From assembly GCA_002839185.1 (NCBI GenBank), contig PGXO01000003.1, positions 1 to 64,000 of the forward strand: a stretch of DNA of 64,000 nucleotides, given 5' to 3'. Made by a program: the position numbers and the translations under genes. Below are positions 19,156 through 35,062 of this stretch, one piece after another; position 1 is the first letter of the stretch; every line of letters starts with the position of its first letter. Source of the DNA: Synergistetes bacterium HGW-Synergistetes-1. Lineage in GTDB: Bacteria > Synergistota > Synergistia > Synergistales > Synergistaceae. The notes beneath the pieces were generated by a model, which ran no database searches, had not been told where the DNA came from, and saw only the letters and a program-made list of their open reading frames with translations.

Positions 19156-19904
19156 CACTGTTCCTCCTTACAAACCCTTAGTCTCTTTGCATATTTTTCG
19201 CCGAAGTATGCAGTTATTACTGTGGGATCATTGACCACAGCCTGTGGACTGTCTTCCGCGATCTTTTTGCCGCTGGCAAGGACGACGATCTTATCCGCAA
19301 TAGGCATTATTGCCTCCATGATGTGCTCAACCATCAGGATCGTAACGCCTTCCTGTTTGAGTCTTACGATGACCTCAACCATCTCTTTTACCTCAGTAGA
19401 GGTCAGTCCAGCTACAGACTCATCCAGAAGGAGCAGTTTGGGGCCGGTTGCAAGCGATCTTGCCACTTCAAGCCTCTTCTTGTTGCCTATTGTAAGCCCG
19501 CCTGCAAGCTTGTCCCGGAGATCTCCGAGGAAACAAAGCCCCAAACAGTGTTCAGCAACCTCGTTGGCCTTTGCTGTATCGCTGTATCGCATGTAGGCAC
19601 CTACAAGTATATTTTCGTATACCGTCATCTCCTTGAGCGGCCTGACGACCTGAAAAGTCCTTGCCAGCCCAAGACGGGCCATCTTCCACGAGGGATAACC
19701 GGTAACATCGCGGCCGTCGAACAGTACCTTTCCTTCCACCGGTTTGTAGAGACCTGCAACGCAGTTGAAAAGAGTCGTCTTGCCCGCTCCGTTAGGGCCA
19801 ATAAGACCTACTATGGTCCCCTCTTCTACATCAAAGGAGACATCGCTGTTGGCAAGCAGAGATCCGAATTTCATGGTCAAATTTCTGACTTCAAGCAGTG
19901 CCAT
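19155..19904 (-). CDS. livG: Branched-chain amino acid ABC transporter ATP-binding protein LivG
   Basis: A 249-residue ABC ATPase. Walker A is GPNGAGKTT and Walker B LLLLDESVAGL. The signature region is unusual: GGLTIGNKKRLE, where LSYGQQRRLE is standard, so the canonical LSGGQ-type sequence is not preserved. The LivG-specific C-terminal part (VEHIMEAIMPIADKIVVL) is intact. The ATG at 19904 has AAGGTGA six bases upstream and overlaps the livM stop. Confidence 0.93.
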   Translation of the reverse strand: MALLEVRNLTMKFGSLLANSDVSFDVEEGTIVGLIGPNGAGKTTLFNCVAGLYKPVEGKVLFDGRDVTGYPSWKMARLGLARTFQVVRPLKEMTVYENILVGAYMRYSDTAKANEVAEHCLGLCFLGDLRDKLAGGLTIGNKKRLEVARSLATGPKLLLLDESVAGLTSTEVKEMVEVIVRLKQEGVTILMVEHIMEAIMPIADKIVVLASGKKIAEDSPQAVVNDPTVITAYFGEKYAKRLRVCKEEQ

Positions 19905-20893
19905 CAAGCGTCACCTTCTCCCTTTGCAACTTTTCTTTTTGTAAAGTATCTTATCAGTCCCATTATCCCGAGAGGCTGCTTGATCATAACGATGATTATT
20001 ATCAGGCCAAATATCATCAGGTCAACGCCTGCTCCAAGGTGGGAAAGATATGCGCGCGTGTATTCCTGAAGCGGGATAAGGACAAGTGCTCCGAGGAATG
20101 GCCCCCAGAATGTCCCAATACCTCCAAGTATCGTTATCAGAACAAATTTCATGGACATGTCAAGAGACATTACCATGGGCGGATCAACTCGATAGTTGTA
20201 CTGAGCGAAGAAAGCACCGCAAAGTGCTGCCAGTGAGGCGGAAAGGGCCATCGCAGAAAGTTTTACAACAGTGCTGTTGACGCCCAGTGATTCAGCAGTC
20301 TCCTGTCCTTCGCGCACAGCTCTGAGATAGTAACCCATCCGGTTTTTCTCTATCCATCTGACCAAGCTGAAGACTAGGATAAAAATCGCAAGCGCGCCGA
20401 GATAGTATCCGTTCTTGGTGTCTGACCACGAGAAATTTTTCCATCCGTCAGGCAGTATCGGGTAGTCAAGCCCCAAAGCTCCGCCGATGGTATCCCAGAT
20501 CATAAAGAGACGGTTGAATATCTCAACGATCGCAAATGTGGCAATTGCGAAATAGTGTCCTTTCAGCTTGAAGCAGGGATAGCTGATCACCACAGATACC
20601 GCTGCTGCTGCCAGCATTCCAAGCGGCGCTCCATACCAGGGCAGGGTGTTGAAATTCACTACCGCAAGAGCTGCTCCATAGGCTCCTATACCAAAAAAGA
20701 CAGAGTGACCGAAGGAAGTCTGCCCGCAGTATCCGCTAATTATGTTCCATGACTGTGCCATCGCCGCATAAAGCAGTATCATCGTCGCGACGTGGCCGAA
20801 GAAGGATCCTCCTATTACACCGGGAACAAAGGGCAGTATGAAGGCGACAGCAAGGAATCCGTACCAGAGTTTGTCTGTTTTGTTTTTAAACAT
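19904..20893 (-). CDS. livM: Branched-chain amino acid ABC transporter permease LivM
   Basis: A roughly 329-residue inner-membrane permease with about eight to ten hydrophobic segments. Family strings are visible: NIISGYCGQTSFGHSVFFGIGAYGAA-type repeats (GYCGQTSFGH), RMGYYLRAVREGQETAESLG (the EAA-like loop, landmark REGQETAESLG) and the C-terminal GGIGTFWGPFLGA. The ATG at 20893 follows GGTGGTGA, and a GTG at 20905 is an alternative start. It overlaps livH and livG. Confidence 0.93.
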   Translation of the reverse strand: MFKNKTDKLWYGFLAVAFILPFVPGVIGGSFFGHVATMILLYAAMAQSWNIISGYCGQTSFGHSVFFGIGAYGAALAVVNFNTLPWYGAPLGMLAAAAVSVVISYPCFKLKGHYFAIATFAIVEIFNRLFMIWDTIGGALGLDYPILPDGWKNFSWSDTKNGYYLGALAIFILVFSLVRWIEKNRMGYYLRAVREGQETAESLGVNSTVVKLSAMALSASLAALCGAFFAQYNYRVDPPMVMSLDMSMKFVLITILGGIGTFWGPFLGALVLIPLQEYTRAYLSHLGAGVDLMIFGLIIIIVMIKQPLGIMGLIRYFTKRKVAKGEGDA

Positions 20894-20898
20894 CGCCG

Positions 20899-21759
20899 TC
20901 ACCACCCAAACAGACCCTTAGGTCTGATCATTATTACAACAAGATAGATCGCAAAGACCGCCACGTACTTTACGACCGCAGCTATATAGAAACCGGCAAA
21001 GGATTCCACAAGTCCGATCAGCAGTGCCGCGAAGAGTGCGCCGGGAATGCTTCCAAAGCCACCAAGCGCAACTACTACGAATGCGATGAGGCTGAAAAGG
21101 CCTCCGACTTCAGGATGCACTGCAAGATATGTAGTCATAAGTCCGCCCGCTACGCCAACACAGGCGCCGCCAATACCAAAAACGAGCAGATAAATATTTT
21201 CCGTGTCGATACCCATAAGCTCAGCTGCTTCCTTATCCATGGCAGTCGCCTGGATCGCCCAGCCCACTCTGGTCTTTTTGATCAGCCAGTAAACGCCGAG
21301 GAGCACTGCCAGCGAGAAGATGGCCGTAACAAGCTGAGGGACGGAAACTATTGCTCCGGCGAAATGGAATGTCTTGCCTTCCATTATTGTGCCTGAGAGC
21401 AGACGGAAATTAGGGGTAAAACGATTCATGCAGAAATTTTTAAGGAGCATCGAAAGACCAAACGTCGCAAGCAGAGGTGCCATAGCAGCTTTTCCAAGGC
21501 TGTTCTTGATGATCAGCTTATACGTAAGTGCTCCAATAAGGAATAGGAATATTCCACCTGCTATCCAGGAGAAGAGGGGATCTATCCCCAGTATCTCTCC
21601 TATCCAGTAGCAGAGATACATTGCAACCATAAGGAATTCCCCATGTGCAAAGTTGATAACATCCATTACTCCCCACATCATGCTGAGTCCGGCTGCAACA
21701 AGCGCATACAAAAGGCCGCTGAGGATCCCGTCTATTAAAACCTGAACAAAGTTGCTCAC
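20899..21759 (-). CDS. livH: Branched-chain amino acid ABC transporter permease LivH
   Basis: A 286-residue permease with hydrophobic segments through most of its length. SGLLYALVAAGLSMMWGVM and INFAHGEF near the N-terminus and GGFGSIPGA late in the chain are LivH signatures. The start is GTG at 21759 with GGGAGG just upstream. A GC-rich hairpin separates it from livK, which probably reduces permease expression relative to the binding protein. Confidence 0.95.
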   Translation of the reverse strand: MSNFVQVLIDGILSGLLYALVAAGLSMMWGVMDVINFAHGEFLMVAMYLCYWIGEILGIDPLFSWIAGGIFLFLIGALTYKLIIKNSLGKAAMAPLLATFGLSMLLKNFCMNRFTPNFRLLSGTIMEGKTFHFAGAIVSVPQLVTAIFSLAVLLGVYWLIKKTRVGWAIQATAMDKEAAELMGIDTENIYLLVFGIGGACVGVAGGLMTTYLAVHPEVGGLFSLIAFVVVALGGFGSIPGALFAALLIGLVESFAGFYIAAVVKYVAVFAIYLVVIMIRPKGLFGW

Positions 21760-21778
21760 TGTAAAAACCTCCCTAAAA

Positions 21779-21806
21779 GAGGCGGGGCAACAGATCGCCC
21801 CGCCTC
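21779..21806 (-). terminator. Intercistronic hairpin between livK and livH
   Basis: A perfect 10-bp GC-rich stem (GAGGCGGGGC at 21779-21788, complement at 21797-21806) has an 8-base loop, between the livK stop and the livH ribosome binding site. There is no T run, so it probably attenuates or stabilises the livK message rather than ending it. Confidence 0.7.
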
Positions 21807-21830
21807 ATAACGCCTAAGTTTTAATATCGA

Positions 21831-23096
21831 CTAGCGTTTGTCCCACGGGGTCATGGGGAAAACGGGCTCCGCTTTCTGGTACTTAAGCGGGAATACTGTT
21901 TTGTAATCCAGGTCCTTTATCTGTGTGATAACGCTGAGAGCATGAATGTTCTGTCCGCCTGGCTCAAATTTCACTTTTCCGCTGAGGGACATTACTGATG
22001 GGAATTCTTCTGTTCTGAGGATCTGAGCTACCTTTTCGGTATCAAGCGATCCGGCCTTCTCTATCGCCTGTGCGAGCACGAAGAGCATTACACCTTCCTG
22101 AATGGAGTCACTGTCAAAGGGCTGGTTGCTTCTGGGTGTATAGTACTTCTTTTCGATCTTGATCGCTTCAGGCATAAACTTTTTCGCAAGCTCAGGTGAG
22201 TATCCCATCCCGCCCATGAAGTGGTTGCCGTCTCCGGCAAGTTCCTTCTGGACTGCGGGGTTCTGATATCCGGTGCAGTAGTTGAGGGCTATCTTCGGAA
22301 GCCAGTTCACCTGTTTCATTGTGCGAACCCAAAGTGAGTAGTCTCCGCCGAGGGCCGCTCCGAATACTGCATCAGGATTTGCAGCTTTGAGTGTCTGGAC
22401 TTCACTGTTGAGGTTTGTCGCACCGTTGTTGAAGGGAACGTCTGCTACGACCTTAAGTCCTGAATGCTTCGCAGCCTTATGGGCTTCTTCTGCAGCATGC
22501 TTTCCGAACTCAGTGTTCTCGTAGATCAAACCAAGAGTCTTGATACCAGCTTTCTTTTCTTTGTTGAGATATTCGATGTACTCAACAAATTCCTTTGATT
22601 CGATGGCGTCTGTCGGAGCGTGACGGAAGAAATACTTATAATCACGCTCTGTGAGGGCAGCTGAACTTGAGCATCCGCACATGAAGATCTTCTTTGCACG
22701 TTCGGCAACTGCGCTCGCCGGTTTGGTGGCTGAGCTGTTGTAGCATCCGATGACAGCAAAGACTTTCTCCTGATTGTAAAGGCGCTCGGCTTCAGATTTG
22801 GCAACGTCAGGTTTGCCCTGGTGGTCAGCCTTGATTATTTCGATCTTATATCCATCGAGAAGGCCTTCTTTCGCTGCAAGAGGAGCGTTGATATCCGGGT
22901 TCTTCTTGTTAATGACATCTGCCGCAGCAAGAACCGCATTTACGCAGTTCTGCCCTGAAACAGCCGCCGGACCTGTGAGTGGGAACAGTACGCCTATCTT
23001 GATGACCTTATCAGCTGCTAAAGCTGATGAACAGATTATCAAAGAGAGGGTCAGAACCATAAGTACCGCGATCGTGGAACGCTTTCTGAGTTGCAT
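21831..23096 (-). CDS. livK: Branched-chain amino acid ABC transporter substrate-binding protein
   Basis: A 421-residue periplasmic binding protein of the Leu/Ile/Val type. A signal peptide (MQLRKR, hydrophobic core, cleavage after SSALA) begins at the ATG at 23096, which is preceded by AGGAGGT. A longer frame extending to 23285 has no such features. The mature domain begins KVIKIGVLFPLTGPAA, the family signature, and includes AVIGCYNSSAT. It is the first gene of the liv operon behind a good promoter. Actual ligand specificity (Leu, Ile, Val or another amino acid or acid) is not decidable. Confidence 0.93.
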   Translation of the reverse strand: MQLRKRSTIAVLMVLTLSLIICSSALAADKVIKIGVLFPLTGPAAVSGQNCVNAVLAAADVINKKNPDINAPLAAKEGLLDGYKIEIIKADHQGKPDVAKSEAERLYNQEKVFAVIGCYNSSATKPASAVAERAKKIFMCGCSSSAALTERDYKYFFRHAPTDAIESKEFVEYIEYLNKEKKAGIKTLGLIYENTEFGKHAAEEAHKAAKHSGLKVVADVPFNNGATNLNSEVQTLKAANPDAVFGAALGGDYSLWVRTMKQVNWLPKIALNYCTGYQNPAVQKELAGDGNHFMGGMGYSPELAKKFMPEAIKIEKKYYTPRSNQPFDSDSIQEGVMLFVLAQAIEKAGSLDTEKVAQILRTEEFPSVMSLSGKVKFEPGGQNIHALSVITQIKDLDYKTVFPLKYQKAEPVFPMTPWDKR

Positions 23097-23168
23097 TGAA
23101 AATCGACCTCCTGTAATAAAGATTAAGATACGACAACCAGAATTATCTGGTGTATCAGTGACATAATT

Positions 23169-23198
23169 ATTATAGTTAATCAAGTAACAAGATGTCAA
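23169..23198 (-). promoter_or_regulatory. Promoter of the liv operon
   Basis: On the minus strand TTGACA (23193-23198) and TATAAT (23169-23174) are both perfect consensus boxes with an 18-base spacer. They lie 73 bases upstream of the livK ATG, giving a leader of roughly 65 bases. Confidence 0.85.
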
Positions 23199-23204
23199 TT
23201 TTTT

Positions 23205-23228
23205 GTTACATTTCACATTTGTTGTAAC
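23205..23228. promoter_or_regulatory. Inverted repeat upstream of the liv -35 box, candidate operator
   Basis: GTTACA (23205-23210) and TGTAAC (23223-23228) form an inverted repeat 12 bases apart. A third related GTAAC lies near 23184 within the promoter spacer. The placement just upstream of -35 suits an activator or repressor site. The binding protein is unknown. The rest of 23229-23349 shows no riboswitch or gene that I can support. Confidence 0.4.
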
Positions 23229-23349
23229 CCAATTCAAAGCCTTGCGGCAGAAGGAATAACCATTATTTTTTATAAAAGCCCGCATTTTCGTTTTAGTGAG
23301 GGACTTCCGTATTTTTTTGTGTTTTTTAAGATATAAGACTTAATTAATG

Positions 23350-23438: not shown

Positions 23439-23696
23439 ATGATCTTTCAGGCTGAAGTACTAATAACACCACGCGAGGGTGTACTGGACACACAGGGCAA
23501 GGCAGTTGAAAAGACCCTGACTCATCTTGGATACAAGGGAGTCGACGAGGTAAGGGTAGGTAAAATAGTAACGATGAAATTGGAAGCGAACACGAAGCAG
23601 GAGGCAGTAAAAATACTCGAATCCATGTGTTCCGATCTTCTCTGCAACGATCTTATAGAAACCTTTAGTATATCAGTCAAGGAAACAGTGCGATGA
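23439..23696 (+). CDS. purS: Phosphoribosylformylglycinamidine synthase subunit PurS
   Basis: An 85-residue small subunit that bridges PurQ and PurL in the Gram-positive-type FGAM synthase complex and helps channel ammonia. The pattern VLDTQGKAVEKTLTHLGYKGVDEVRVGKI (landmarks VLDTQGKAVE and VRVGK) is diagnostic. AAGGAGG sits nine bases before the ATG. It overlaps purQ by four bases. Confidence 0.96.
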   Translation: MIFQAEVLITPREGVLDTQGKAVEKTLTHLGYKGVDEVRVGKIVTMKLEANTKQEAVKILESMCSDLLCNDLIETFSISVKETVR

Positions 23697-24406
23697 AAAC
23701 TGCTGTAGTTGTCTTTCCCGGGAGCAATTGTGACAGGGATGTCCAGCGGGCTGTCAGTGAATCAATGAAAACAGCTGTGGACATGGTATGGCACGAAGAA
23801 GAAAACTTCAGCGGGCAGCCGGACCTTGTGATCCTGCCCGGAGGCTTTTCATACGGGGACTATCTCCGTTCCGGGGCGATGGCAGCAAGATCACCCATCA
23901 TCAAAGCTGTGAAGGAACATGCGGCCCGAGGCGGACTTGTGCTCGGGATATGCAACGGATTCCAGATACTTACAGAGACAAAGATGCTGCCCGGCGCGCT
24001 CCTTCCAAACACTTCGCTTACCTTTATATGCAGCAGGTGCTATGTTCGGGTCGAACAGACCGATAATAAATTCACCTCCGGCCTTAATAAGGGAAAGGTG
24101 CTCCAGTTTCCGATAGCTCACCACGAAGGACTCTTTTTCCTCCCTGATGACGAACTGAAAAAACTTGAAGACGCAGGACGCGTAGTCTTCAGGTATGCAG
24201 ACCCCGATACCGGAAAGGCAGGCGCCGAATACGCGCCTAACGGCGCATTGAACGGCATAGCCGGGATATGCAGTGAAAAAGGAAACATACTCGGACTGAT
24301 GCCTCATCCCGAACGTGCTACGATCCCTCATCTCAGCGGCGGGACAGACGGAATCAGGTTCTGGGATTCTATTGCGAAGGCTTTTAAAGAAAGAGGTGCA
24401 TGCTGA
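23693..24406 (+). CDS. purQ: Phosphoribosylformylglycinamidine synthase subunit PurQ (glutaminase)
   Basis: A 237-residue class I glutamine amidotransferase supplying ammonia to PurL. The nucleophile elbow GICNGFQ contains the catalytic Cys (about residue 87), and the catalytic His/Glu pair is in MPHPER near residue 205. VVFPGSNCDRD at the N-terminus and GGFSYGDYLR are family signatures. It overlaps purS and purL. Confidence 0.97.
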   Translation: MKTAVVVFPGSNCDRDVQRAVSESMKTAVDMVWHEEENFSGQPDLVILPGGFSYGDYLRSGAMAARSPIIKAVKEHAARGGLVLGICNGFQILTETKMLPGALLPNTSLTFICSRCYVRVEQTDNKFTSGLNKGKVLQFPIAHHEGLFFLPDDELKKLEDAGRVVFRYADPDTGKAGAEYAPNGALNGIAGICSEKGNILGLMPHPERATIPHLSGGTDGIRFWDSIAKAFKERGAC

Positions 24407-26559
24407 TGGACTATAAAAGCGCCGGTCTTTCAGACTCGGAATATAAACGCATAAATGAACTTCTTGAAAGGGAGCCCAACCCCCTTGAGACGCAGCTGAT
24501 CGGAGTAATGTGGTCAGAACACTGCAGTTATAAATCGACCAAGAGGCTTCTTAAGACATACCCGTCGAAGGGAAAATACGTTCTTCAGGGACAGGGAGAG
24601 AACGCGGGCGTAGTTGATATGGGAGAGGGATGGGGCTTTGCATTTAAAGTCGAGAGCCACAACCATCCATCCGCTGTAGCTCCTTTCCAGGGAGCTGCTA
24701 CCGGTGTAGGCGGCATTATCAGGGACATAATAGCCATGGGTGCCCGGCCTTCGGTCTCGATGGACGGACTATTCTTCGGAGACCCTTCGCTTAAAAAAAC
24801 AGAAAATCTCTCCAAGGGCATAGTTGAGGGGATCGGCGCATACGGCAATGCAGTCGGAGTACCCATTGTAGGAGGAAAGACATTCTACTCACCCTGCTAC
24901 ACGGACAACCCCCTTGTAAACGCTTTCAGCGCAGGGTTCGTCCGTCTTGACAAGATGGCAAGCTCACAGACAGCCAAGAAGGGAGACCTTGCAGTACTCC
25001 TGGGCTCAAAGACAGGACGTGACGGGATCGCAGGTGCTTCATTCGCCTCCCGTGAACTTGATGAGGACTCAAAAGCAAGCAAGCCCCAGATACAGATAGG
25101 CGACCCATTTGAAGAAAAACTGCTTATTGAATGCTGCATGGACCTTCTCGACAAAGGCCTTATCGCTTCAATGCAGGATATGGGTGCCGCAGGCATTCTC
25201 TCATCTTCCAGCGAAATAGCTCACAAGAGCGGATGCGGTATAGACATAACCGTTGAAAAGATCCCTCTCAGGGAAAAGGGAATGGCTCCGTGGGAAATAT
25301 TCCTCTCCGAGTCACAGGAGCGTATGCTTCTGATAGTTGAAGAGGACAAGCTTGATCCTGTCTTCGCATTGGCAGCTCATTACGGGCTGGACTGCGCAGT
25401 AGTCGGAATGATGACTGATTCGCACCGTTACAGGGTCTATGAAAATGATGAACTTATCGCTGACCTTCCTACATCCATACTGGGAGACACACCGGAAGTG
25501 ATATGGCCGTCAGCAGAACCTGCAGATATCAAGGAAAGAGGCACAATGAACACCTCTTCCCTTATTTCAAAAGATCCTGAGACTGACCTCCTCTCCCTGG
25601 TCAGCTGCCCAAACGGAAGAAGCAAGCATAAGATATGGGAGCAGTATGACTCAATGGTCCAGCTGCATACCATCGAGGGACCGGGGGCTCCTGCAGCCGT
25701 TGTTGAAGTGCCTGAAACAGAGAGGGCATGCCTGCTTACTATGGAAGCTGAGCCAAACAAATGCTGGACAGATCCTTACACAGGCGCCTCCGAAACAATG
25801 GCCCTCTCTCTGAGGGGTCTATGGATCTCCGGAGCAGAAGTTCTGGGAATGACTAACTGTCTGAACTTTGCCTCTCCGGAGGCACCTGATAAATTCTATG
25901 AACTCGAACAGTCGATCAAAGGGCTTGCAGACACATGCAGAAGCCTTGACTGCCCCGTAGTTTCAGGAAACGTCAGCCTCTACAACGAGACAGCAGGCGG
26001 ACAGATCTGCCCCACCCCCCTTGTGGTGACTGCCGGACTTATTAAAGACAGAAACAGACGTCTTGCATCAGGAAATGCGGGTACCGGCGACATACTCTAC
26101 ATCGTTGGGGATCTTTGCGGTTCGCTGGGGGCTTCGCGCTACCAGGTAATGAAAAACGGCAAACCGGCTGGCAAAACTGTCAGACCTGATCATGACAAGG
26201 AAAAGTCGTTCCGGGAAAGGGCGATGAAAACCGCTGCTGACGGAGCCGCGTCTTCCGGACGGGCTGTAGCCGGCGGAGGCATTGCAGTTGCACTTGCAAA
26301 CGAAGCGATAGCTACAGGCAGGGGGATCAATGTCAAAATAAGCTCATCTCTGACCGCTGAAGAGCTCCTCTTCTCAGAAGGCGGAGCACGAGCCATATAT
26401 GCCGTTCCCAAAGAAAAAGCTCCTTCTTTTGAAAAGATATGGGAAGGTTTTCCCTGCGCAAAGATAGGAACTGTCGGGGGAGAAAAGTTTGAATGGAAAG
26501 ATATGTTCAGCCTTGATCTCTCAAAACTGAAAAAGGCCTTCACGGAGGGCTGTTTCTAA
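24406..26559 (+). CDS. purL: Phosphoribosylformylglycinamidine synthase subunit PurL
   Basis: A 717-residue short-form PurL, the ATP-dependent synthetase subunit working with PurS and PurQ. Key strings include WSEHCSYKSTKRLL near residue 35, ESHNHPSAVAPFQGAATGVGG, QDMGAAG and the second-half SGNVSLYNE. I prefer the ATG at 24406 over one at 24400, because it has better spacing to GAGGTG and forms a TGATG junction with the purQ stop. Confidence 0.97.
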   Translation: MDYKSAGLSDSEYKRINELLEREPNPLETQLIGVMWSEHCSYKSTKRLLKTYPSKGKYVLQGQGENAGVVDMGEGWGFAFKVESHNHPSAVAPFQGAATGVGGIIRDIIAMGARPSVSMDGLFFGDPSLKKTENLSKGIVEGIGAYGNAVGVPIVGGKTFYSPCYTDNPLVNAFSAGFVRLDKMASSQTAKKGDLAVLLGSKTGRDGIAGASFASRELDEDSKASKPQIQIGDPFEEKLLIECCMDLLDKGLIASMQDMGAAGILSSSSEIAHKSGCGIDITVEKIPLREKGMAPWEIFLSESQERMLLIVEEDKLDPVFALAAHYGLDCAVVGMMTDSHRYRVYENDELIADLPTSILGDTPEVIWPSAEPADIKERGTMNTSSLISKDPETDLLSLVSCPNGRSKHKIWEQYDSMVQLHTIEGPGAPAAVVEVPETERACLLTMEAEPNKCWTDPYTGASETMALSLRGLWISGAEVLGMTNCLNFASPEAPDKFYELEQSIKGLADTCRSLDCPVVSGNVSLYNETAGGQICPTPLVVTAGLIKDRNRRLASGNAGTGDILYIVGDLCGSLGASRYQVMKNGKPAGKTVRPDHDKEKSFRERAMKTAADGAASSGRAVAGGGIAVALANEAIATGRGINVKISSSLTAEELLFSEGGARAIYAVPKEKAPSFEKIWEGFPCAKIGTVGGEKFEWKDMFSLDLSKLKKAFTEGCF

Positions 26560-26561
26560 AA

Positions 26562-27932
26562 ATGTGCGGCGTTTTCGGCGCTTACAGCATGAACGGTGCC
26601 TCAGTACTTGAGGATGTCTATCTCGGTCTCTGCGCACTACAGCACAGGGGTCAGCTTTCTGCTGGCGTTGCATGGATAGAGGACGGGACCGTAAACATAA
26701 AGAAGGGTATGGGACTGGTCCACGAAGCACTGAGCCAGAACTGTCTTTCCCACATCCATGCAGATACTGCAATAGGACATGTAAGGTATGCAACGGCTGG
26801 AGGCACCCGGATAGAAGACTGCCAGCCCATCGGAGCAAATTATTCCCAGGGGCCTGTCGCCATCGCCCACAACGGAAACCTCACTAACGCCCATGGCCTC
26901 AGCGGCTATCTCGAAAACAGGGGAGCCATATTCCACACATCATCCGACACGGAGACCATCCTTCAGCTTATGGCCCACCAGCCGGGGGTCGTCCAGCTGG
27001 AAGCCCTTGAAAAATCTCTTGCGAAGATCCAGGGGGCATACAGCCTGGCGGTACTTTTTGACGGATGTCTCATAGCCGCAAGGGATCCTTGGGGTTTCCG
27101 GCCTCTGATCATCGGTCAAAGAGATGAGACTATCTACATAGCATCAGAGTCATGCGCTCTGGACATACTTGGGGCTGAGATAATCCGAGATGTTGAACCC
27201 GGCGAGATACTTGTCATAGACAGGAGGGGCATGATATCCCGAAAACTCCCGGTAAGCCCGCCCAAAAGATGCCACTGCTCTTTTGAATATGTTTATTTTG
27301 CGCGTCCCGACAGCGTTATAGACGGCAGATCCGTTTACAGGGCAAGAAAAGAACTGGGTGTCAAACTGGCTGAAACTGCAGTCCCGGAAAATTCTGTAGT
27401 CACAGGGATGCCGGACAGCGGCACACTTGCAGCCCTGGGATACGCCCAAAAATCATCGCTTCCCTTCGAGATGGGGATCGTGAGGAACCGGTATGTAGGC
27501 AGGACATTCATACAGCCCACCCAGCTCGTTAGAGAAATCGGGGTCAAGATAAAGCTTAACCCACAGCGCACAGCATTCATAGACAGAGAGGCTCTGGTAG
27601 TGGATGACTCTCTTGTCCGTGGAACGACCGCAGGAAGGATAGTATCCATGATAAGGGAGAGCGGAGCAAAAAAAGTCCACCTGCGCATAGCATCACCTCC
27701 GGTTTGTTTCCCATGTTATTACGGGATAGACACTCCAAGTTCAGATGAACTGGCGGCGGCACAGATGGACATACCCACCCTGTGCAAAAAGATAGGGGCG
27801 GACTCCCTTGAATACCTGACCTGCGAACAGCTCAGGAATGCGATAGGGCTTCCCTCGTCAGAACTCTGCACAGCCTGCTTTGACGGCAGCTACCTTGAGA
27901 ATGAAGATTACTCCGATCTTCTGGAGGTCTGA
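26562..27932 (+). CDS. purF: Amidophosphoribosyltransferase, complete glutaminase (first PurF)
   Basis: A 456-residue enzyme catalysing the first committed step, PRPP plus glutamine to phosphoribosylamine. It begins MCGVFGAYS, so the N-terminal nucleophile Cys is present. Other glutaminase residues are intact (GHVRYATAGG, IAHNGNL, SSDTE). The PRPP loop is VVDDSLVRGTT. Cysteines for the [4Fe-4S] cluster of the Bacillus-type enzyme are present (CSFEYVYF, FPCYYGID, LCTACF). It is followed by an 98-base stretch and purC, then a second purF copy that lacks the nucleophile. Confidence 0.96.
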   Translation: MCGVFGAYSMNGASVLEDVYLGLCALQHRGQLSAGVAWIEDGTVNIKKGMGLVHEALSQNCLSHIHADTAIGHVRYATAGGTRIEDCQPIGANYSQGPVAIAHNGNLTNAHGLSGYLENRGAIFHTSSDTETILQLMAHQPGVVQLEALEKSLAKIQGAYSLAVLFDGCLIAARDPWGFRPLIIGQRDETIYIASESCALDILGAEIIRDVEPGEILVIDRRGMISRKLPVSPPKRCHCSFEYVYFARPDSVIDGRSVYRARKELGVKLAETAVPENSVVTGMPDSGTLAALGYAQKSSLPFEMGIVRNRYVGRTFIQPTQLVREIGVKIKLNPQRTAFIDREALVVDDSLVRGTTAGRIVSMIRESGAKKVHLRIASPPVCFPCYYGIDTPSSDELAAAQMDIPTLCKKIGADSLEYLTCEQLRNAIGLPSSELCTACFDGSYLENEDYSDLLEV

Positions 27933-28030: not shown

Positions 28031-28744
28031 ATGGAACTGAATAAAAAGGATTTCATATACGAAGGCAAAGCAAAGAGGCTCTACACTACAGATGATCCGG
28101 ATCTTGTAATAGTGGAATACAAGGACAGCTTCACCGCTTTCAACGGAGAGAAGAAGGCGACAATGAGCGGCAAAGGCCAGCTCAACAACAAAATAAGCTC
28201 AAAACTTTTCGGGTATCTCAAATCAAAAGGCATAGATTCACATTTCGTCAGGCAGATCGACGATGTTCATCAGGTCGTGACCAGAGTTTCCATCGTCCCC
28301 CTTGAAGTCATCGTGAGGAACATCACTACAGGATCGCTATGCAAAAGGCTGGGCGTTAAGGAAGGCATGGTGCTTCCCCGCCCTCTCGTGGAGTTCTGCT
28401 ACAAAAACGATGAACTGGGTGATCCCATTGTCCTCGAAGATCATGCGATCCTTTTTGGATGGGCGACAGAGGAAGAAATTGCTAAGATCAAGGACATTTC
28501 ACTCAAGGTAAACTCCGTGCTGAAAGAATATTTTGCAGAAAAGGGCATCGTCCTGGTCGACTTCAAACTTGAATTCGGCAAAGATTCAAAAGGAAACCTC
28601 ATGCTTGCAGATGAGATCTCACCCGACACGTGCAGGTTCTGGGACAGCTCGACAGGAGACCGCCTCGATAAGGACCGCTTCCGTAAAGACCTGGGGAACG
28701 TCCTGGGTGCATACGAAGAGATCTGGAAGAGGATATCAGCGTAA
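28031..28744 (+). CDS. purC: SAICAR synthase
   Basis: A 237-residue enzyme joining CAIR with aspartate. FIYEGKAKRLY at the N-terminus, the DSFTAFNGEKK segment, SLCKRLG and the late ISPDTCRFWD are diagnostic. The ATG at 28031 has GGAGGTG eight bases upstream, and an earlier in-frame start is poorly placed. The gap before it (27933-28030) holds an ACCCTG/CAGGGT inverted repeat but no gene. Confidence 0.97.
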   Translation: MELNKKDFIYEGKAKRLYTTDDPDLVIVEYKDSFTAFNGEKKATMSGKGQLNNKISSKLFGYLKSKGIDSHFVRQIDDVHQVVTRVSIVPLEVIVRNITTGSLCKRLGVKEGMVLPRPLVEFCYKNDELGDPIVLEDHAILFGWATEEEIAKIKDISLKVNSVLKEYFAEKGIVLVDFKLEFGKDSKGNLMLADEISPDTCRFWDSSTGDRLDKDRFRKDLGNVLGAYEEIWKRISA

Positions 28745-28748
28745 AAAG

Positions 28749-30116
28749 ATGAGTGGGATATTCGGGGCTTACAGCAAAACAGGCAAACCGGTCCTGGAGG
28801 AGGTATACCTCGGGCTTTACGCACTCCAGCACAGGGGACAGGAGTGTGCAGGCATAGCCTGGAGTGAGGGCGGGCGTATAGCTGCCGCAAAGGGAATGGG
28901 ACTTCTCCATAATGCGATAGAACAGCAGTGCCTGACTCAAAAAAACGCTCCCTGCGCAATAGGACATGTGCGATACACACCGCTTTCGGGATCCCAGCTG
29001 CACAATGTGCTCCCAATAGGGGCAAACTATGCCAGGGGAGCTGTCGCAGTTTCGCATGACGGACTCATCACCAATCTGAAGGAACTGACGGCCCAGCTTG
29101 AGAAACAGGGGGCAATTTTCCAGTCATCAACAGATTCTGAGGCCATCCTCCATCTCATGGCCCACAAATCCCACATGCAGCCTCTGGATGCCCTCATAGA
29201 TTCCCTCCGCAAGGTAAAAGGGTCATACGCTGTTATTGTCCTCCTTAACGGAGCCCTTGTAGCAGCACGTGATCCCTGGGGATTCAAACCCCTTGTGATA
29301 GGCAAAAAGGATGAGGATTACTATGCCGCTTCAGAATCTTGCGCCCTCGATATCGTTGGTGCCAAACTGCTCCGCGACGTTGAACCCGGCGAGATGATCG
29401 TCATTGACGAGAGAGGCATGAGAAGCCTGAAGATACATCACGAGTGCTTCCGAGGGATGAGATGTTCATTCGAGTATGTCTACACTGCCCGGCCCGACAG
29501 CATAATCGACGGCAGGTCGGTGTATGAAGCACGCAAAGAGATGGGACGGCTTCTGGCTGAACAGGCTCCGTGCCCGGAGGCAGACATAACGGCGGGAATG
29601 CCTGACAGCGGAACGATCGCTGCAGTCGGATACGCCGAAAGGTCCAACATACCGCTTGAAATGGGCGTTGTAAGAAACCGCTATGTCGGGCGAACCTTTA
29701 TCCAGCCGACACAGAAAGTCCGTGACCTGGGTGTTAAAATTAAACTGAACCCGATATCTGAGGTTTTTAACAATAAAAAGGCAGTGGTAATTGACGATTC
29801 GATAGTTAGGGGGACAACTGCAGAGAGGGTAGTCTCAATGATAAGAGACTCGGGAGCATCCCAGGTGCATCTGAGGATAGCATCACCCCCCGTGGTCCAT
29901 CCCTGCAGATATGGGATCGACACCAGAAAAGAAGAGACTCTTGCAGCCGTCCGCATGACTCTTCCTGAACTTTGCAAAAAGGTAGGCGCAGACTCCCTTG
30001 AGTACCTGAGCGAAGAAAACCTGACAGCAGCGATAGGACTGCAGGAGGATCAGATATGCACTGCCTGTTTCACAGGTAAATATCTTGATGAAAAAGATTT
30101 GAAAGCAGGTGAGTGA
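28749..30116 (+). CDS. Second PurF paralogue with inactivated glutaminase domain
   Basis: A 455-residue protein colinear with the upstream PurF over its whole length. It begins MSGIFGAYS: the catalytic Cys is Ser. AHNGNL has become SHDGLI, which removes the Asn of the oxyanion pocket, and RYAT has become RYTP. The phosphoribosyltransferase half is intact (PRPP loop VIDDSIVRGTT, PDSGTIAAVGYAE, RNRYVGRTFIQP), as are the four cluster cysteines. It may therefore use free ammonia, pair with the active PurF, or regulate it. The start is fixed by alignment with PurF. It sits five bases after purC and overlaps purM. Confidence 0.92.
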   Translation: MSGIFGAYSKTGKPVLEEVYLGLYALQHRGQECAGIAWSEGGRIAAAKGMGLLHNAIEQQCLTQKNAPCAIGHVRYTPLSGSQLHNVLPIGANYARGAVAVSHDGLITNLKELTAQLEKQGAIFQSSTDSEAILHLMAHKSHMQPLDALIDSLRKVKGSYAVIVLLNGALVAARDPWGFKPLVIGKKDEDYYAASESCALDIVGAKLLRDVEPGEMIVIDERGMRSLKIHHECFRGMRCSFEYVYTARPDSIIDGRSVYEARKEMGRLLAEQAPCPEADITAGMPDSGTIAAVGYAERSNIPLEMGVVRNRYVGRTFIQPTQKVRDLGVKIKLNPISEVFNNKKAVVIDDSIVRGTTAERVVSMIRDSGASQVHLRIASPPVVHPCRYGIDTRKEETLAAVRMTLPELCKKVGADSLEYLSEENLTAAIGLQEDQICTACFTGKYLDEKDLKAGE

Positions 30117-30118
30117 TC

Positions 30119-31135
30119 TTGGATAACAACTTTACTTACGAAAAGGCAGGAGTCAGCATCGAAGCAGGTGACCTGTGGGTCGAAACCATAAAGGGCATGC
30201 TGAAAAAACGCCCGAAGGACCCTAACTGCGTTGGCGGAGTCGGTGGATTTGCAGGCCTTTACCGCATTGGCGGCGGAAAATGCATTGCAGCCTGCTGCGA
30301 CGGCGTCGGCACAAAACTTGAACTGGCGAAGGAGACAGGGATCTACCGCGGGCTGGGACAGGACCTTGTCGCCATGAACGTCAACGACCTTGTCACGGGG
30401 GGAGCAAGACCACTCTTTTTCCTCGATTACGCTTCATGCGGGAAACTTAATGTTGATATTTTTAAAGAGATCGTTGAGGGTATCCTAGACGCATGCAGTG
30501 AAAGCATGTGCGCTCTGCTCGGAGGCGAAACGGCTGAAATGCCAGACGTCTATGGCGAAGAAGGGTTTGATCTGGCCGGATTTGCTGTCGGCATGATAGA
30601 CGAAGACAAAATAATCGACGGAAGCGCAGTAAAAGAGGGTGACATCATCCTCGGGCTCAGCAGCTCCGGTGTCCACAGCAACGGATACAGCCTTGTAAGG
30701 AAGGCTCTCGGCAAAGGCGGGCTGAACGCGAAACTTGATGCGGTCCCTGCCGGATGGAACGAAAAACTTGCAGAAGCTGTCATGAGACCTACAAAATTAT
30801 ATGTAAGGCCTGCCCTTGCGGCAGTAGAAACCGGTGCCGTACACGGCATGGCACACATCACAGGCGGCGGGATGTACGGAAATGTCATCAGGATCATCCC
30901 CAAAGGACTCAACATCGAAATAGATTTCAGCTCATGGGAACGCCCAAAGATTTTTGAACTTATCCAGAGCGCAGGCATTGAGGAAGATGAAATGAGAAAA
31001 GTATTCAACCTCGGGATCGGGTTTGTCTTTATCGCTGACCCTGATGAGGCGCACCTGATCGAAAAAGCCCTCTCCGGTTCCGGAGAGAAAGCTGTGAAAA
31101 TCGGAAGGGTAGTAAAGTGTTCCTCCCCCGCATAG
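30119..31135 (+). CDS. purM: Phosphoribosylformylglycinamidine cyclo-ligase
   Basis: A 338-residue AIR synthetase that closes the imidazole ring. Strings TYEKAGVSIEAGD, GVGTKLELA, DLVAMNVNDLVTGGARPLFFLDY (landmark VNDLVTGGA), LLGGETAEMP and HSNGYSLVRK are diagnostic. I favour the TTG at 30119, because AGGTG lies seven bases upstream, whereas the GTG at 30113 leaves no spacing. It overlaps the end of purN's start region by 19 bases. Confidence 0.96.
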   Translation: MDNNFTYEKAGVSIEAGDLWVETIKGMLKKRPKDPNCVGGVGGFAGLYRIGGGKCIAACCDGVGTKLELAKETGIYRGLGQDLVAMNVNDLVTGGARPLFFLDYASCGKLNVDIFKEIVEGILDACSESMCALLGGETAEMPDVYGEEGFDLAGFAVGMIDEDKIIDGSAVKEGDIILGLSSSGVHSNGYSLVRKALGKGGLNAKLDAVPAGWNEKLAEAVMRPTKLYVRPALAAVETGAVHGMAHITGGGMYGNVIRIIPKGLNIEIDFSSWERPKIFELIQSAGIEEDEMRKVFNLGIGFVFIADPDEAHLIEKALSGSGEKAVKIGRVVKCSSPA

Positions 31136-31716
31136 CGATCCTGATCTCCGGCACTGGCTCCAACATGGAAGTCATCCTCAAAGCCTGTATTACCGGAGAA
31201 CTGCCTGCGGAGGTATCTTTTGTGGGAAGCGACAACATAAACGCAAAAGGACTTGACACTGCGTCTGCCCTGGGAGCTCAGACACGAGTATTCTTTTACA
31301 AAAGGGACGGACGGAAGGCCGCAGAGGAAGCTATCGCCATGGCTATCAAGGATACAGAGACAGACTGGATAATACTTGCAGGCTTCATGAAGGTCCTCTC
31401 TCCTGAATTTGTAAGAAAGTTCCCTTGTAAAATCATAAATATCCACCCTGCAATGCTGCCCTCATTCCCCGGCGCCCACGGGATACGTGACGCGTGGGAG
31501 GCGAAGGCGGACCACACCGGCGTAACTGTCCACATAGTTGACGAAGAGGTTGACCACGGACACATACTCGCCCAGGAAAGGGTCGACATCCTTCCTGAAG
31601 ATACGCTGGAAACTCTTGAAGAGAGAATTCACAGGGTCGAACACAGGATATACAAAGAGACTCTGATAAAACATTTTTCAGAAAATCCGATATCTATCGA
31701 AGAGCGGGAGGAATAA
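31117..31716 (+). CDS. purN: Phosphoribosylglycinamide formyltransferase (10-formyl-THF dependent)
   Basis: A 199-residue GAR transformylase. The N-terminal AILISGTGSNMEVI, the catalytic segment KIINIHPAMLPSFPGAHG (Asn, His) and VDHGHILAQ are clear. The GTG at 31117 has GGAAGG eight bases upstream and lies inside the purM 3' end. The stop overlaps the purH ATG (TAATG). Confidence 0.97.
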   Translation: MFLPRIAILISGTGSNMEVILKACITGELPAEVSFVGSDNINAKGLDTASALGAQTRVFFYKRDGRKAAEEAIAMAIKDTETDWIILAGFMKVLSPEFVRKFPCKIINIHPAMLPSFPGAHGIRDAWEAKADHTGVTVHIVDEEVDHGHILAQERVDILPEDTLETLEERIHRVEHRIYKETLIKHFSENPISIEEREE

Positions 31717-33248
31717 TGATGATGGAGACAAGAAAAGCGCTTATATCTGTCTGGGATAAGACAGGTGTTCTCGAATTGGCAAAGGGACTCGCTGCACACG
31801 GATACGAGATAGTTTCAAGCTCAGGAACTGCAAAGCACCTTGAAGAGGGCGGATTAAAAGTTACTGAAGTAGTTGACATGACCGGACTTCCTGCGATCCT
31901 TGGCGGAAGGGTGAAGACCCTCCATCCGGCTGTTATGGGCGGAATACTTGCAAGAAGGGGTATGGCCCAGGATGACGAGGACAGAAAGAAGTTTTCCATC
32001 CCGCTCATCGACGTTGTTGTGTGCACGCTCTATCCCTTTGAAGAGACAGCTCAAAAAGGGGCTGACCTCGACCATCTTATTGAAAAGATCGACATAGGCG
32101 GAGTCTCCCTGATCAGGGCGGCTGCAAAAAACTACTACCACGTAACAGTTGTGACTGATATTGCAGATTACGGGTGCGTCCTTGAGGAGCTTGAGAAGAA
32201 ACAGGAATTCACGCTTGAATTCAAACAGAAGCTCGCCCTCAAGGCCTTCCGCCTTACTTCATCATATGACGCAACGATATACAAGGGCCTTTGCTCAGAG
32301 ATAGGCACTGAAGAAGAAACCGGGGAAGACAAGATCCTTCCGCTGCGTAAGGTACAGGACCTGAGATACGGTGAAAACCCGCACCAGAAAGCCGCGCTCT
32401 TCCTTCCCCCGCTTGAGAAACAGCCATTCGAACAGCACTCAGGGAAGGAACTTTCCTACAACAACCTTCTTGACCTTGATACACTTCTTCGCGGATGCTC
32501 AGTATTCCAGGACCTCTGCGCCTGCACGATCGTAAAACACACAACGCCATGCGGTACCGCTCATGGCAAGACACCTCTCGAGGCATTCAGAAAAGCCCTT
32601 GAGTGCGATCCTGTATCTGCATTCGGCGGCATAATAGGAATGACAAGAAATGTCGACATGGAGACTGCAAAGGCTATCACTGAGACATTCTTTGAGATAG
32701 TCGCTGCGCCTTCTTATGGTGAAGGCGTGATCGAATGGTTCAGGGAAAAGAAACCCAACCTCAGAGTCCTGACCATAACCCCCGGATATGCCCCAAAACT
32801 TCAGATAACAGGAAACAGGTGCGGCTTCCTTGTTCAGGAGGATATGCTTCCGGTCCTTCCCAAGATGGATGAAGGCAAGTGGATCGGCAACGCAAGACCC
32901 GACCTCTGGGATGACATTATTTTCGCATGGAAGACAGCTGCTATCACCAAGAGCAACTCGATCGTTCTGGTAAAGGACGGAGCTGCAGTAGGAATAGGAG
33001 GAGGCTTCACCAACAGGGTCGACGCGGCAGAGTACGCGCTGAGGCTTGCCTGTGAAAAGGCAAAGGGCGCAGTCATGGCTTCAGACGCATTCTTCCCCTT
33101 CCCCGACACTATAGAACTTGCTGCAAAAGAAGGAGTCGCTGCTGTCATACAGCCAGGCGGATCGATCAAAGACGAAGAAGTATTCAAACGGGCTGAAGAG
33201 CTTGGAATAAGCATGTTCGTCGGCGGCAGCCGTACGTTCAGGCACTAA
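31716..33248 (+). CDS. purH: Bifunctional AICAR transformylase / IMP cyclohydrolase
   Basis: A 510-residue enzyme completing IMP synthesis. The N-terminal cyclohydrolase domain has ALISVWDKTG, SSSGTAKHLEE and the GGRVKTLHPAVMGGIL segment. The C-terminal transformylase domain has LRYGENPHQKAA, CTIVKHTTPCG (catalytic Lys-His) and SDAFFPFPD. Three tandem ATG codons follow GGGAGG, so the start is uncertain by up to six bases. Confidence 0.97.
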   Translation: MMMETRKALISVWDKTGVLELAKGLAAHGYEIVSSSGTAKHLEEGGLKVTEVVDMTGLPAILGGRVKTLHPAVMGGILARRGMAQDDEDRKKFSIPLIDVVVCTLYPFEETAQKGADLDHLIEKIDIGGVSLIRAAAKNYYHVTVVTDIADYGCVLEELEKKQEFTLEFKQKLALKAFRLTSSYDATIYKGLCSEIGTEEETGEDKILPLRKVQDLRYGENPHQKAALFLPPLEKQPFEQHSGKELSYNNLLDLDTLLRGCSVFQDLCACTIVKHTTPCGTAHGKTPLEAFRKALECDPVSAFGGIIGMTRNVDMETAKAITETFFEIVAAPSYGEGVIEWFREKKPNLRVLTITPGYAPKLQITGNRCGFLVQEDMLPVLPKMDEGKWIGNARPDLWDDIIFAWKTAAITKSNSIVLVKDGAAVGIGGGFTNRVDAAEYALRLACEKAKGAVMASDAFFPFPDTIELAAKEGVAAVIQPGGSIKDEEVFKRAEELGISMFVGGSRTFRH

Positions 33249-33260
33249 GGGGGGTCTCTC

Positions 33261-34544
33261 ATGAGGATTATGGTACTTGGGGGCGGCGGACGCGAGCATG
33301 CGGTCGTCCACGCTTTTTCAAAATCCAAGATCGTCACAAAACTTCACTGCTGTCCCGGAAATCCCGGAATATCAAAGCTTGCTGCATGTCACGCAGGAAA
33401 CCCATCAGACCCCTTTCAGATGACAGCGCTGTGCAAAAGGCTTGATATCGACCTGGTCTTCATTGGCCCGGAAGCCCCGCTGGTGGCAGGAACAGCTGAC
33501 GCATTGAGAGATGCAGGCATTCTTGTGATGGGACCTGGCAAACTTGGAGCGCAGCTTGAAGGCAGTAAAGTATTTTCAAAAAATTTCATGGAAAAACATG
33601 GAATACCAACTTCTTCCTTCGACTGCTGCAACAACATTGAAGAGTGCGAAAAAGCCCTCGACAAGAGATCTGCTCCCTATGTGGTGAAGGCAGACGGCCT
33701 TGCTGCAGGAAAAGGGGCCTTTCTTCCTGATACCAAGGAAGAGGCTATGACGATCTGCAGCATGATGCTTGACGACATGATCCTTGGATCAGCAGGCAGA
33801 AATATAATCATAGAGGACTACGTCCAAGGACAGGAAATGACTATCCTTGCCATAACGGACGGGAATACAGTCAGGATACTGCCTTCGAGCCAGGACCATA
33901 AGAGAGCTCTTGACGGGGACAAGGGAAACAATACAGGAGGCATGGGAGCCTATTCCCCAGTACCGTGGGTCGACAGCTCTTTCATGAAAAAGGTCGAGGA
34001 TGTTGTGCTGATGCCCACGCTGGAAGGACTCAAAAAAGAGAACATTCCCTTTTGCGGAGTCATTTACGCCGGCATCATGATAAAACCTGACGGTTCGCTC
34101 TCTGTACTGGAGTACAATGTAAGGCTCGGAGATCCGGAAGCACAGGTAGTCCTTCCTGTATTTGCCGGAGATTTTGGAGAGGCGATCTTCTCCTGCTGCA
34201 AGGGTGATCTGGCTAAGGTCGAATGGCCTGTCCCGGAACATTTCGCACTGGGAGTCGTAATGGCATCGGGTGGATACCCTGACAAGTACCAGACTGGCTA
34301 CGAAATAGTGATCCGTGACGAGGAAGTGCACGACACATACATCTACCATGCAGGAACAGCACATGACAACACCGGGACTCTCGTAACATCTGGAGGACGT
34401 GTCCTCACCGTAGTAGGAATAGCTCCGACTCTCAAAGAGGCGAAAGACCTTGCTTACAGACGCGTTAAAACGGTCTATTTTAGGGATGCGCATTACAGGA
34501 AAGACATAGGAGACAAATCATTGAAAGGGGAGGATCAGAAGTGA
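33261..34544 (+). CDS. purD: Phosphoribosylamine-glycine ligase
   Basis: A 427-residue ATP-grasp enzyme making GAR. MRIMVLGGGGREHAV, VFIGPEAPLVAG, YVVKADGLAAGKG, GGMGAYSPVP and VRLGDPEAQVVLP follow in the standard order. AAGGGGGG lies upstream of the ATG. It overlaps purE by four bases. Confidence 0.97.
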   Translation: MRIMVLGGGGREHAVVHAFSKSKIVTKLHCCPGNPGISKLAACHAGNPSDPFQMTALCKRLDIDLVFIGPEAPLVAGTADALRDAGILVMGPGKLGAQLEGSKVFSKNFMEKHGIPTSSFDCCNNIEECEKALDKRSAPYVVKADGLAAGKGAFLPDTKEEAMTICSMMLDDMILGSAGRNIIIEDYVQGQEMTILAITDGNTVRILPSSQDHKRALDGDKGNNTGGMGAYSPVPWVDSSFMKKVEDVVLMPTLEGLKKENIPFCGVIYAGIMIKPDGSLSVLEYNVRLGDPEAQVVLPVFAGDFGEAIFSCCKGDLAKVEWPVPEHFALGVVMASGGYPDKYQTGYEIVIRDEEVHDTYIYHAGTAHDNTGTLVTSGGRVLTVVGIAPTLKEAKDLAYRRVKTVYFRDAHYRKDIGDKSLKGEDQK

Positions 34545-35062
34545 AAACTCCCCGGATAGGGATAATAATGGGCTCGGCGTCAGACATCCCTGTGATCGAA
34601 AAAGGCGTTGAGGTGCTCGATGAGCTCGGAATACCATATGAAGTGGCAATAGCATCCGCGCACAGGACCCCGCGTGACGTTGAGGGATACGCGGTCAACG
34701 CCTCAAAAAGAGGTATTCAGGTGATCATCGCGGCAGCTGGACTTTCAGCGGCACTGCCAGGGGTCGTGGCTGCTGCTACAAACCTGCCTGTGATAGGCAT
34801 CCCCGTAAAGGGCGGAGCGCTTGACGGACTTGACGCGCTGCTCTCTGTCACGCAGATGCCTCCTGGAGTTCCTGTCGGTTCGGTAGGCCTTAACGCTTCA
34901 TTGAATGCATGCCTTATGGCAGCAAGAATAATAGCGATAAATGACAGGGAGATATCTCAAAAACTTGAAGCCTGGACAAAGAAAAGAGCTTCTGCCGTAG
35001 CGGAGAGCCGCTCTAAGCTTGCAGACCTCCCTGCAGCTCCTGAAGAGGCGTACAAAATATAA
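34541..35062 (+). CDS. purE: 5-(carboxyamino)imidazole ribonucleotide mutase / AIR carboxylase PurE
   Basis: A 173-residue PurE. GIIMGSASDIPV and the SAHRTP loop are present. The loop that reads AGGAAHLPG in class I enzymes is AAGLSAALPG here, without the His, while the downstream LDGLDALLSVTQMPPGVPV is class I-like. With no purK in the operon, direct use of CO2 (class II behaviour) is possible but unproven. The start is GTG at 34541 in a GTGA overlap with purD. It is the last gene of the operon; purB and purK are absent. Confidence 0.94.
   Translation: MKTPRIGIIMGSASDIPVIEKGVEVLDELGIPYEVAIASAHRTPRDVEGYAVNASKRGIQVIIAAAGLSAALPGVVAAATNLPVIGIPVKGGALDGLDALLSVTQMPPGVPVGSVGLNASLNACLMAARIIAINDREISQKLEAWTKKRASAVAESRSKLADLPAAPEEAYKI

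Follow-up and report, generated by a model that had tools for sequence, protein, structure and literature searches.

A conserved Ser-type second PurF in the purine operon of Synergistaceae, a putative ammonia-dependent PRPP aminotransferase

Described Cys-less PurF proteins and the HGW-Synergistetes-1 operon

In textbook accounts the nitrogen for the first step of purine synthesis comes from glutamine. A Cys-less second PurF, PurF′, is encoded beside purF in Crenarchaeota, and its use of ammonia was proposed but has not been tested in any organism (Brown et al. 2011, PMC3261824). A purF duplicate with Ser in place of the Cys is also known from Methanocorpusculum labreanum (Mlab_0150), where it is recent, limited to one species, and was doubted by the authors to act as a PRPP amidotransferase (PMC3261824). 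Carbamoyl phosphate synthetase 1 is an amidotransferase that has turned ammonia-specific, its glutaminase Cys having changed to Ser while the dead domain was kept (PMC4655335); it belongs to another pathway and an unrelated glutaminase class, and is a precedent for mechanism only.

The window (the whole stretch of DNA that was analysed, 64,000 nt) lies on contig C3 of the HGW-Synergistetes-1 genome (2.17 Mb, 99.9% complete). It carries a purine operon in the order likely purS, purQ, purL, purF_A, purC, purF_B, purM, purN, purH, purD and purE (Table 1), so that two PurF copies flank purC, as a sequence-only reading of the window had described. The two products (A and B hereafter) share about 60% identity from end to end. 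Upstream of the operon, on the minus strand (19904–23285), are genes that look like permeases and a binding protein of a branched-chain amino-acid ABC transporter, read from the sequence with no family search.

Table 1. Features of the purine operon in the window, and loci of altered amidotransferases in related genomes.
Feature	Position	Strand	Remarks
likely purS (85 aa)	23439..23696	+	from size, position upstream of purQ, and sequence; no family search
purQ	23693..24406	+	nucleophile motif GICNGFQ intact in the window genome
purL	24400..26559	+	
purF_A	26562..27932	+	456 aa, codon 2 = TGC
Leu codon at E. coli position 29 of A	26655..26657	+	Leu in 19/19 A copies
purC	28031..28744	+	between the two purF genes
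purF_B	28749..30116	+	455 aa, codon 2 = AGT; disabled glutaminase site, intact transferase
Ser replacing N-terminal nucleophile Cys1	28752..28754	+	codon AGT; Ser in 21/21 full-length B copies
Glutamine loop RYTPLS (E. coli R73–G78)	28971..28988	+	T76P in 20/21; G78 lost in all B
HDG, oxyanion-hole Asn101 to Asp	29055..29063	+	Asp in 21/21 B copies
Cys239, predicted Fe-S ligand	29463..29465	+	aligned to B. subtilis PurF; invariant in B
PRPP-binding loop VVIDDSIVRGTT	29784..29819	+	intact
Cys386, predicted Fe-S ligand	29904..29906	+	aligned to B. subtilis PurF; invariant in B
Cys437 and Cys440 (CTAC), predicted Fe-S ligands	30057..30068	+	aligned to B. subtilis PurF; invariant in B
purM, purN, purH, purD, purE	30113..35062	+	remainder of the operon
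PurQ/GuaA/PyrG of G011 (C16, C113) and G030 (C31, C135)			L115, L114, L172, L201, L200
GuaA/PyrG changes of G013/G031			L212, L213, L217

Like PurF′, B is a second PurF near purF and other purine genes that lacks the Cys and keeps its transferase half, and on these points the likeness holds. The crenarchaeal residue is often Ala or Val, whereas the Synergistaceae protein has Ser in all copies together with N101D and T76P, and one Synergistaceae genome keeps the Cys-less copy only. In phylogenetic reconstruction (no archaeal sequences were included) B falls among the PurF of Synergistaceae, so an origin independent of PurF′ is likely. The Ser-for-Cys change is shared with Mlab_0150, but B forms a conserved clade. 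With standard PurF (E. coli; B. subtilis, 1ao0) it shares full-length homology, the PRPP loop and the B. subtilis-type Fe-S cysteines, but it has lost the glutaminase nucleophile, oxyanion hole and glutamine loop.

Given the precedents of PurF′ and carbamoyl phosphate synthetase 1, the Synergistaceae genes belong to a known but unproven kind. What is new is the bacterial setting, the conserved Ser/Asp signature, a genome with the Cys-less copy alone, and a link to losses in PurQ, GuaA and PyrG. Literature searches of open-licence full texts found no report of a bacterial ammonia-dependent PurF, whether Ser-type or sole-copy, nor, within the same texts, of the wider glutaminase losses (PurQ, GuaA, PyrG); because of that limit, earlier reports may exist.

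Residues lost and kept in the second PurF

Residues were tabulated after aligning the sequences to PurF of E. coli and B. subtilis. Numbering follows E. coli, except for the four cluster Cys (239, 386, 437 and 440), which are numbered as in B. The roles assigned to individual residues, the effect of Cys1 excepted, belong to the general background on PurF. The motifs picked out in the sequence-only reading are correct: A reads MCGVFGAYS, RYATAG and AHNGNL where B reads MSGIFGAYS, RYTPLS and SHDGLI. Cys1, Arg73, Asn101 and Asp127 are all kept by A. In B, besides the changes in Table 1, the single copy without Pro at position 76 has Ser, leaving no Thr there in any of the 21 full-length copies; Asp127 has become Asn in nine and Arg73 has become Ser in two, while G102 is retained. 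Neither the N-terminal Cys criterion nor the R73/N101/G102/D127 criterion for PurF is met by B, yet it scores 455 bits against the curated PurF equivalog TIGR01134 (cut-off 350), and A is likewise above the cut-off. Mis-set start codons are an error met by Brown et al. in archaea (PMC3261824). A start of this kind masking an upstream Cys was rejected for B, as no upstream in-frame start gives an alternative N-terminal Cys.

The transferase half is preserved. Residues D366, D367, R371, G372 and T373 of the PRPP loop are the same as in reference PurF, the flexible loop R328–F334 is invariant or conservatively changed, and the ammonia-channel positions Y258, Y329, I335 and L415 are unaltered. The phosphoribosyltransferase motif and cluster cysteines had been described as intact, and the loop IDDSIVRGTT and all four Cys are indeed invariant in B. 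Three signatures on the transferase side are peculiar to B (F259T, P410R and H418V), and their meaning is unknown. A structure model of B (mean pLDDT 77.5) has as its top match 1ao0 of B. subtilis (E 4e-50, TM 0.75); on this prediction the PurF fold criterion is met, with the flexible loop of the transferase poorly modelled.

The changes had been thought to be confined to the glutaminase half. Single-copy PurF has 99 positions in the glutaminase half and 83 in the transferase half that are conserved at 90% or more; 17 of the former and 4 of the latter are lost in B, so that enrichment stands but strict confinement does not. For the same set, A has lost six in the glutaminase half and none in the transferase half. 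Position 29, which is acidic (Glu) in all B and in all other Synergistota PurF tabulated, single-copy proteins included, is the Leu of A; its effect on glutamine use is unknown.

It could be supposed that Ser1 is itself a new N-terminal nucleophile, with which B uses glutamine slowly or takes another amide donor, since Ser serves as nucleophile in some Ntn hydrolases and the glutaminase domain of B is kept under selection. We consider this very improbable, as Asn101 is Asp in every B, the glutamine loop is broken, and R73 or D127 has also been lost in some copies. In E. coli PurF carrying Ser or Ala at Cys1, moreover, glutamine use was undetectable while ammonia use was kept (Mei & Zalkin 1989, as reported in PMC3261824).

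Since Cys1, Asn101 and the glutamine loop are all altered, we infer that glutamine hydrolysis has been lost in B. The reading we prefer, at a probability of roughly 0.7, is that B is an ammonia-dependent PRPP aminotransferase, an activity that is inferred, as is any flux through it, none having been measured. Its N-terminal domain would keep the fold without hydrolysing glutamine, and its transferase domain would join free NH3 to PRPP to give phosphoribosylamine.

Distribution, selection and dependence on the first copy

The occurrence of B was established by a phylum-wide search of 188 genomes, a pattern census and operon-by-operon reading. It was found in 22 Synergistaceae genomes of ten genera, 21 copies being full-length and one partial (G178). 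Of the seven near relatives that the named collection yielded, most carry the label Synergistaceae. Where a two-copy genome has its operon in one piece, the order is purL-purF_A-purC-purF_B-purM. A PurF_B 90% identical to that of the window occurs in a record titled 'Euryarchaeota archaeon' (L099, JAKQBQ010000175.1), which looks mislabelled or contaminated. One contig (G024:C78; L061, L062) carries two inverted purQ-purL-purF blocks whose identity scores are the same and which may be an artefact of assembly.

In the PurF tree, B forms one clade (support 100/100) and A another (100/99), A grouping with neighbouring single-copy PurF and B with the PurF of G023. The B-bearing genomes form one clade in a tree of other purine enzymes (support 1.0), which fits a single origin followed by vertical inheritance. 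That A and B are sisters from a recent local duplication was tried and set aside, an AU test disfavouring an A+B clade (p 0.03); long branches are involved.

The loss of catalytic residues would, taken alone, suit a duplicate in early decay, and a single Ser codon could be a sequencing error. Both can be practically discounted on the comparative data. Ser at codon 2 recurs in the 22 related genomes, as the argument against sequencing error in the sequence-only reading would have it, and no frameshifts were seen. Within the genus of the window, dN/dS of B is about 0.02–0.05 in both domains (around 0.03), and that of A is mostly 0.03–0.05 with single pairs up to 0.09. The disabled glutaminase domain of B is, at such values, being kept and is not decaying. 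Relatives with B decayed in both domains would have refuted the proposed specialisation, and none was found.

The two copies differ in where constraint falls. Over 17 genomes, variation in the transferase domain of A is 1.23 times that of B (bootstrap 1.07–1.43) and in the glutaminase domain 0.90 times (0.77–1.03), a ratio of ratios of 1.37 (1.13–1.69). The transferase seems to be held more tightly in B and the glutaminase slightly more tightly in A; A and B have specialised together, with constraint shifted in opposite directions. For this reason a mixed tetramer remains the main rival, unlikely though we judge it to be. In such a complex A would supply the glutaminase (perhaps with a weaker transferase) and B the main transferase. 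Products of adjacent genes of one ancestry often form mixed oligomers, almost all B-bearing genomes have A as well, so that B may be a subunit there, and the Leu29 type of A was never seen without B. Known PurF, however, channels its ammonia within a single chain, and B would not receive ammonia from A unless it were released.

Two genomes also stand against the mixed tetramer. In G011 (96% complete) B is the sole PurF, a whole-genome search finding no other; the slot of A, on one contiguous contig, is a 430-bp AT-rich spacer between purL and purC, and the other operon genes are kept. In G004, A also has Ser1, with the codon TCC where B copies have AGY, together with R73K, so that the nucleophile is absent in both copies. 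These cases argue against B depending on the glutaminase of A.

The retention of B in G011 bears as well on the idea that it is a regulatory pseudoenzyme, binding PRPP or nucleotides and tuning A or the operon. An adjacent duplicate that has lost one half-reaction and is strongly constrained in both domains would fit such a role, but every transferase position tested is intact, and B has been kept where A is gone and no PurF-type target is left to regulate; we regard this role as improbable. The sequence-only reading had left three options for B, namely an ammonia-using transferase, a partner subunit and a regulator. The first is best supported, the second is not excluded in A-bearing genomes, and the third is less supported.

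Ammonia use and losses in other amidotransferases

An ammonia-dependent B is also favoured by genomes in which no standard PurF was found. G023, outside the B-bearing clade, has a single PurF with Gly1 and Asp101, in an operon of purC-purL-purF-purM (L060) without purS or purQ; no good match to PurQ was found elsewhere in this genome, which is only 65% complete. In G013 and G031 (L076, L077) the only PurF is a divergent Gly1 type (MGGFFG) inside the purine operon. Judged by their residues, none of the PurF proteins of G011, G004, G023, G013 and G031 could draw on glutamine in the established way, while the purine operon is kept.

MGGFFG-type PurF-like proteins, in which the nucleophile Cys is replaced by Gly, are found in Bacteroidales and on a Clostridia megaplasmid (L125, L126), and are only about 30% identical to B. 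Annotated 'amidophosphoribosyltransferase', they adjoin pepT in two records (Bacteroides finegoldii and Peptoclostridium), outside the purine operon, in contrast to the sole, operon-borne PurF of G013 and G031.

Other nucleotide amidotransferases have lost glutaminase residues in some of the same genomes. The nucleophile Cys of PurQ has been replaced in G011 (by Ser) and G030 (by Ala), and is kept in all other genomes read. Among 30 family genomes, the Cys of GuaA is Gly in G011 and G030; its glutaminase domain is truncated in G008 (L216) and absent in G013 and G031, where no separate GuaA glutaminase subunit was found, the only PF00117 matches being PyrG and HisH. The Cys of PyrG is Ser in G011 and Gly in G023 (L181) and G008, and its catalytic His has been lost in G008, G013 and G031. 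With its B-only PurF and the Cys lost from PurQ, GuaA and PyrG, G011 has all four nucleotide amidotransferases found without a nucleophile. Loss of the PurF nucleophile and loss elsewhere coincide in four genomes, each occurs alone in one, and neither is seen in 23 (Fisher p 0.001, uncorrected for kinship; two pairs of the affected genomes are congeneric).

Glucosamine-6-phosphate synthase (GlmS) reportedly cannot work with ammonia (PMC9539796), and its Cys is kept in all six readable genomes (G000, G008, G011, G013, G016 and G030), as an ammonia-based explanation predicts. The GlmS proteins of G011 and G030 (L127, L133), two genomes of one genus, with Cys1 kept, have HRKYDS and HRTYDS where the usual motif is YRGYDS. 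HisH is intact in G000, G013, G030 and G031. A glutamine synthetase match was present in 18 of the 19 genomes searched, so glutamine is still made.

From these losses a wider proposal may be drawn, which the evidence favours only slightly: that Synergistaceae have repeatedly moved their nucleotide synthesis from glutamine over to free ammonia, the Ser-type PurF being one step of this, and that the glutaminase functions of PurF, PurQ, GuaA and PyrG were lost piecemeal in at least four lineages, all four enzymes being apparently ammonia-dependent in G011 and the site of GlmS being kept. PurQ, GuaA and PyrG are intact in the genome of the window, so that there B has been added without a full switch having taken place.

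Synergistota ferment amino acids (PMC12366334). Such a metabolism releases ammonia, and its direct use by B would spare the ATP spent by glutamine synthetase, a benefit that is inferred. In most genomes a glutamine-capable A would work beside B; where A has lost its nucleophile (G004) or its gene (G011), the pathway would run on ammonia alone. Phosphoribosylamine can also arise non-enzymatically from ribose 5-phosphate and ammonia (PMC3485032), so the existence of a B-only genome is no proof of activity in B.

The family models used name B, and its relatives in G011 and G023, simply PurF, so that the proposed ammonia use would matter for annotation. A conserved PurF that has apparently done with glutamine, and is the sole copy in one lineage, opens the 2011 proposal on Cys-less PurF proteins to direct test. 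The parallel losses in PurQ, GuaA and PyrG suggest that bacteria fermenting amino acids where ammonia is plentiful can shed glutaminase halves one enzyme at a time, which would have consequences for how the evolution of ammonia channelling is understood and for metabolic models of bacteria from digesters and the gut.
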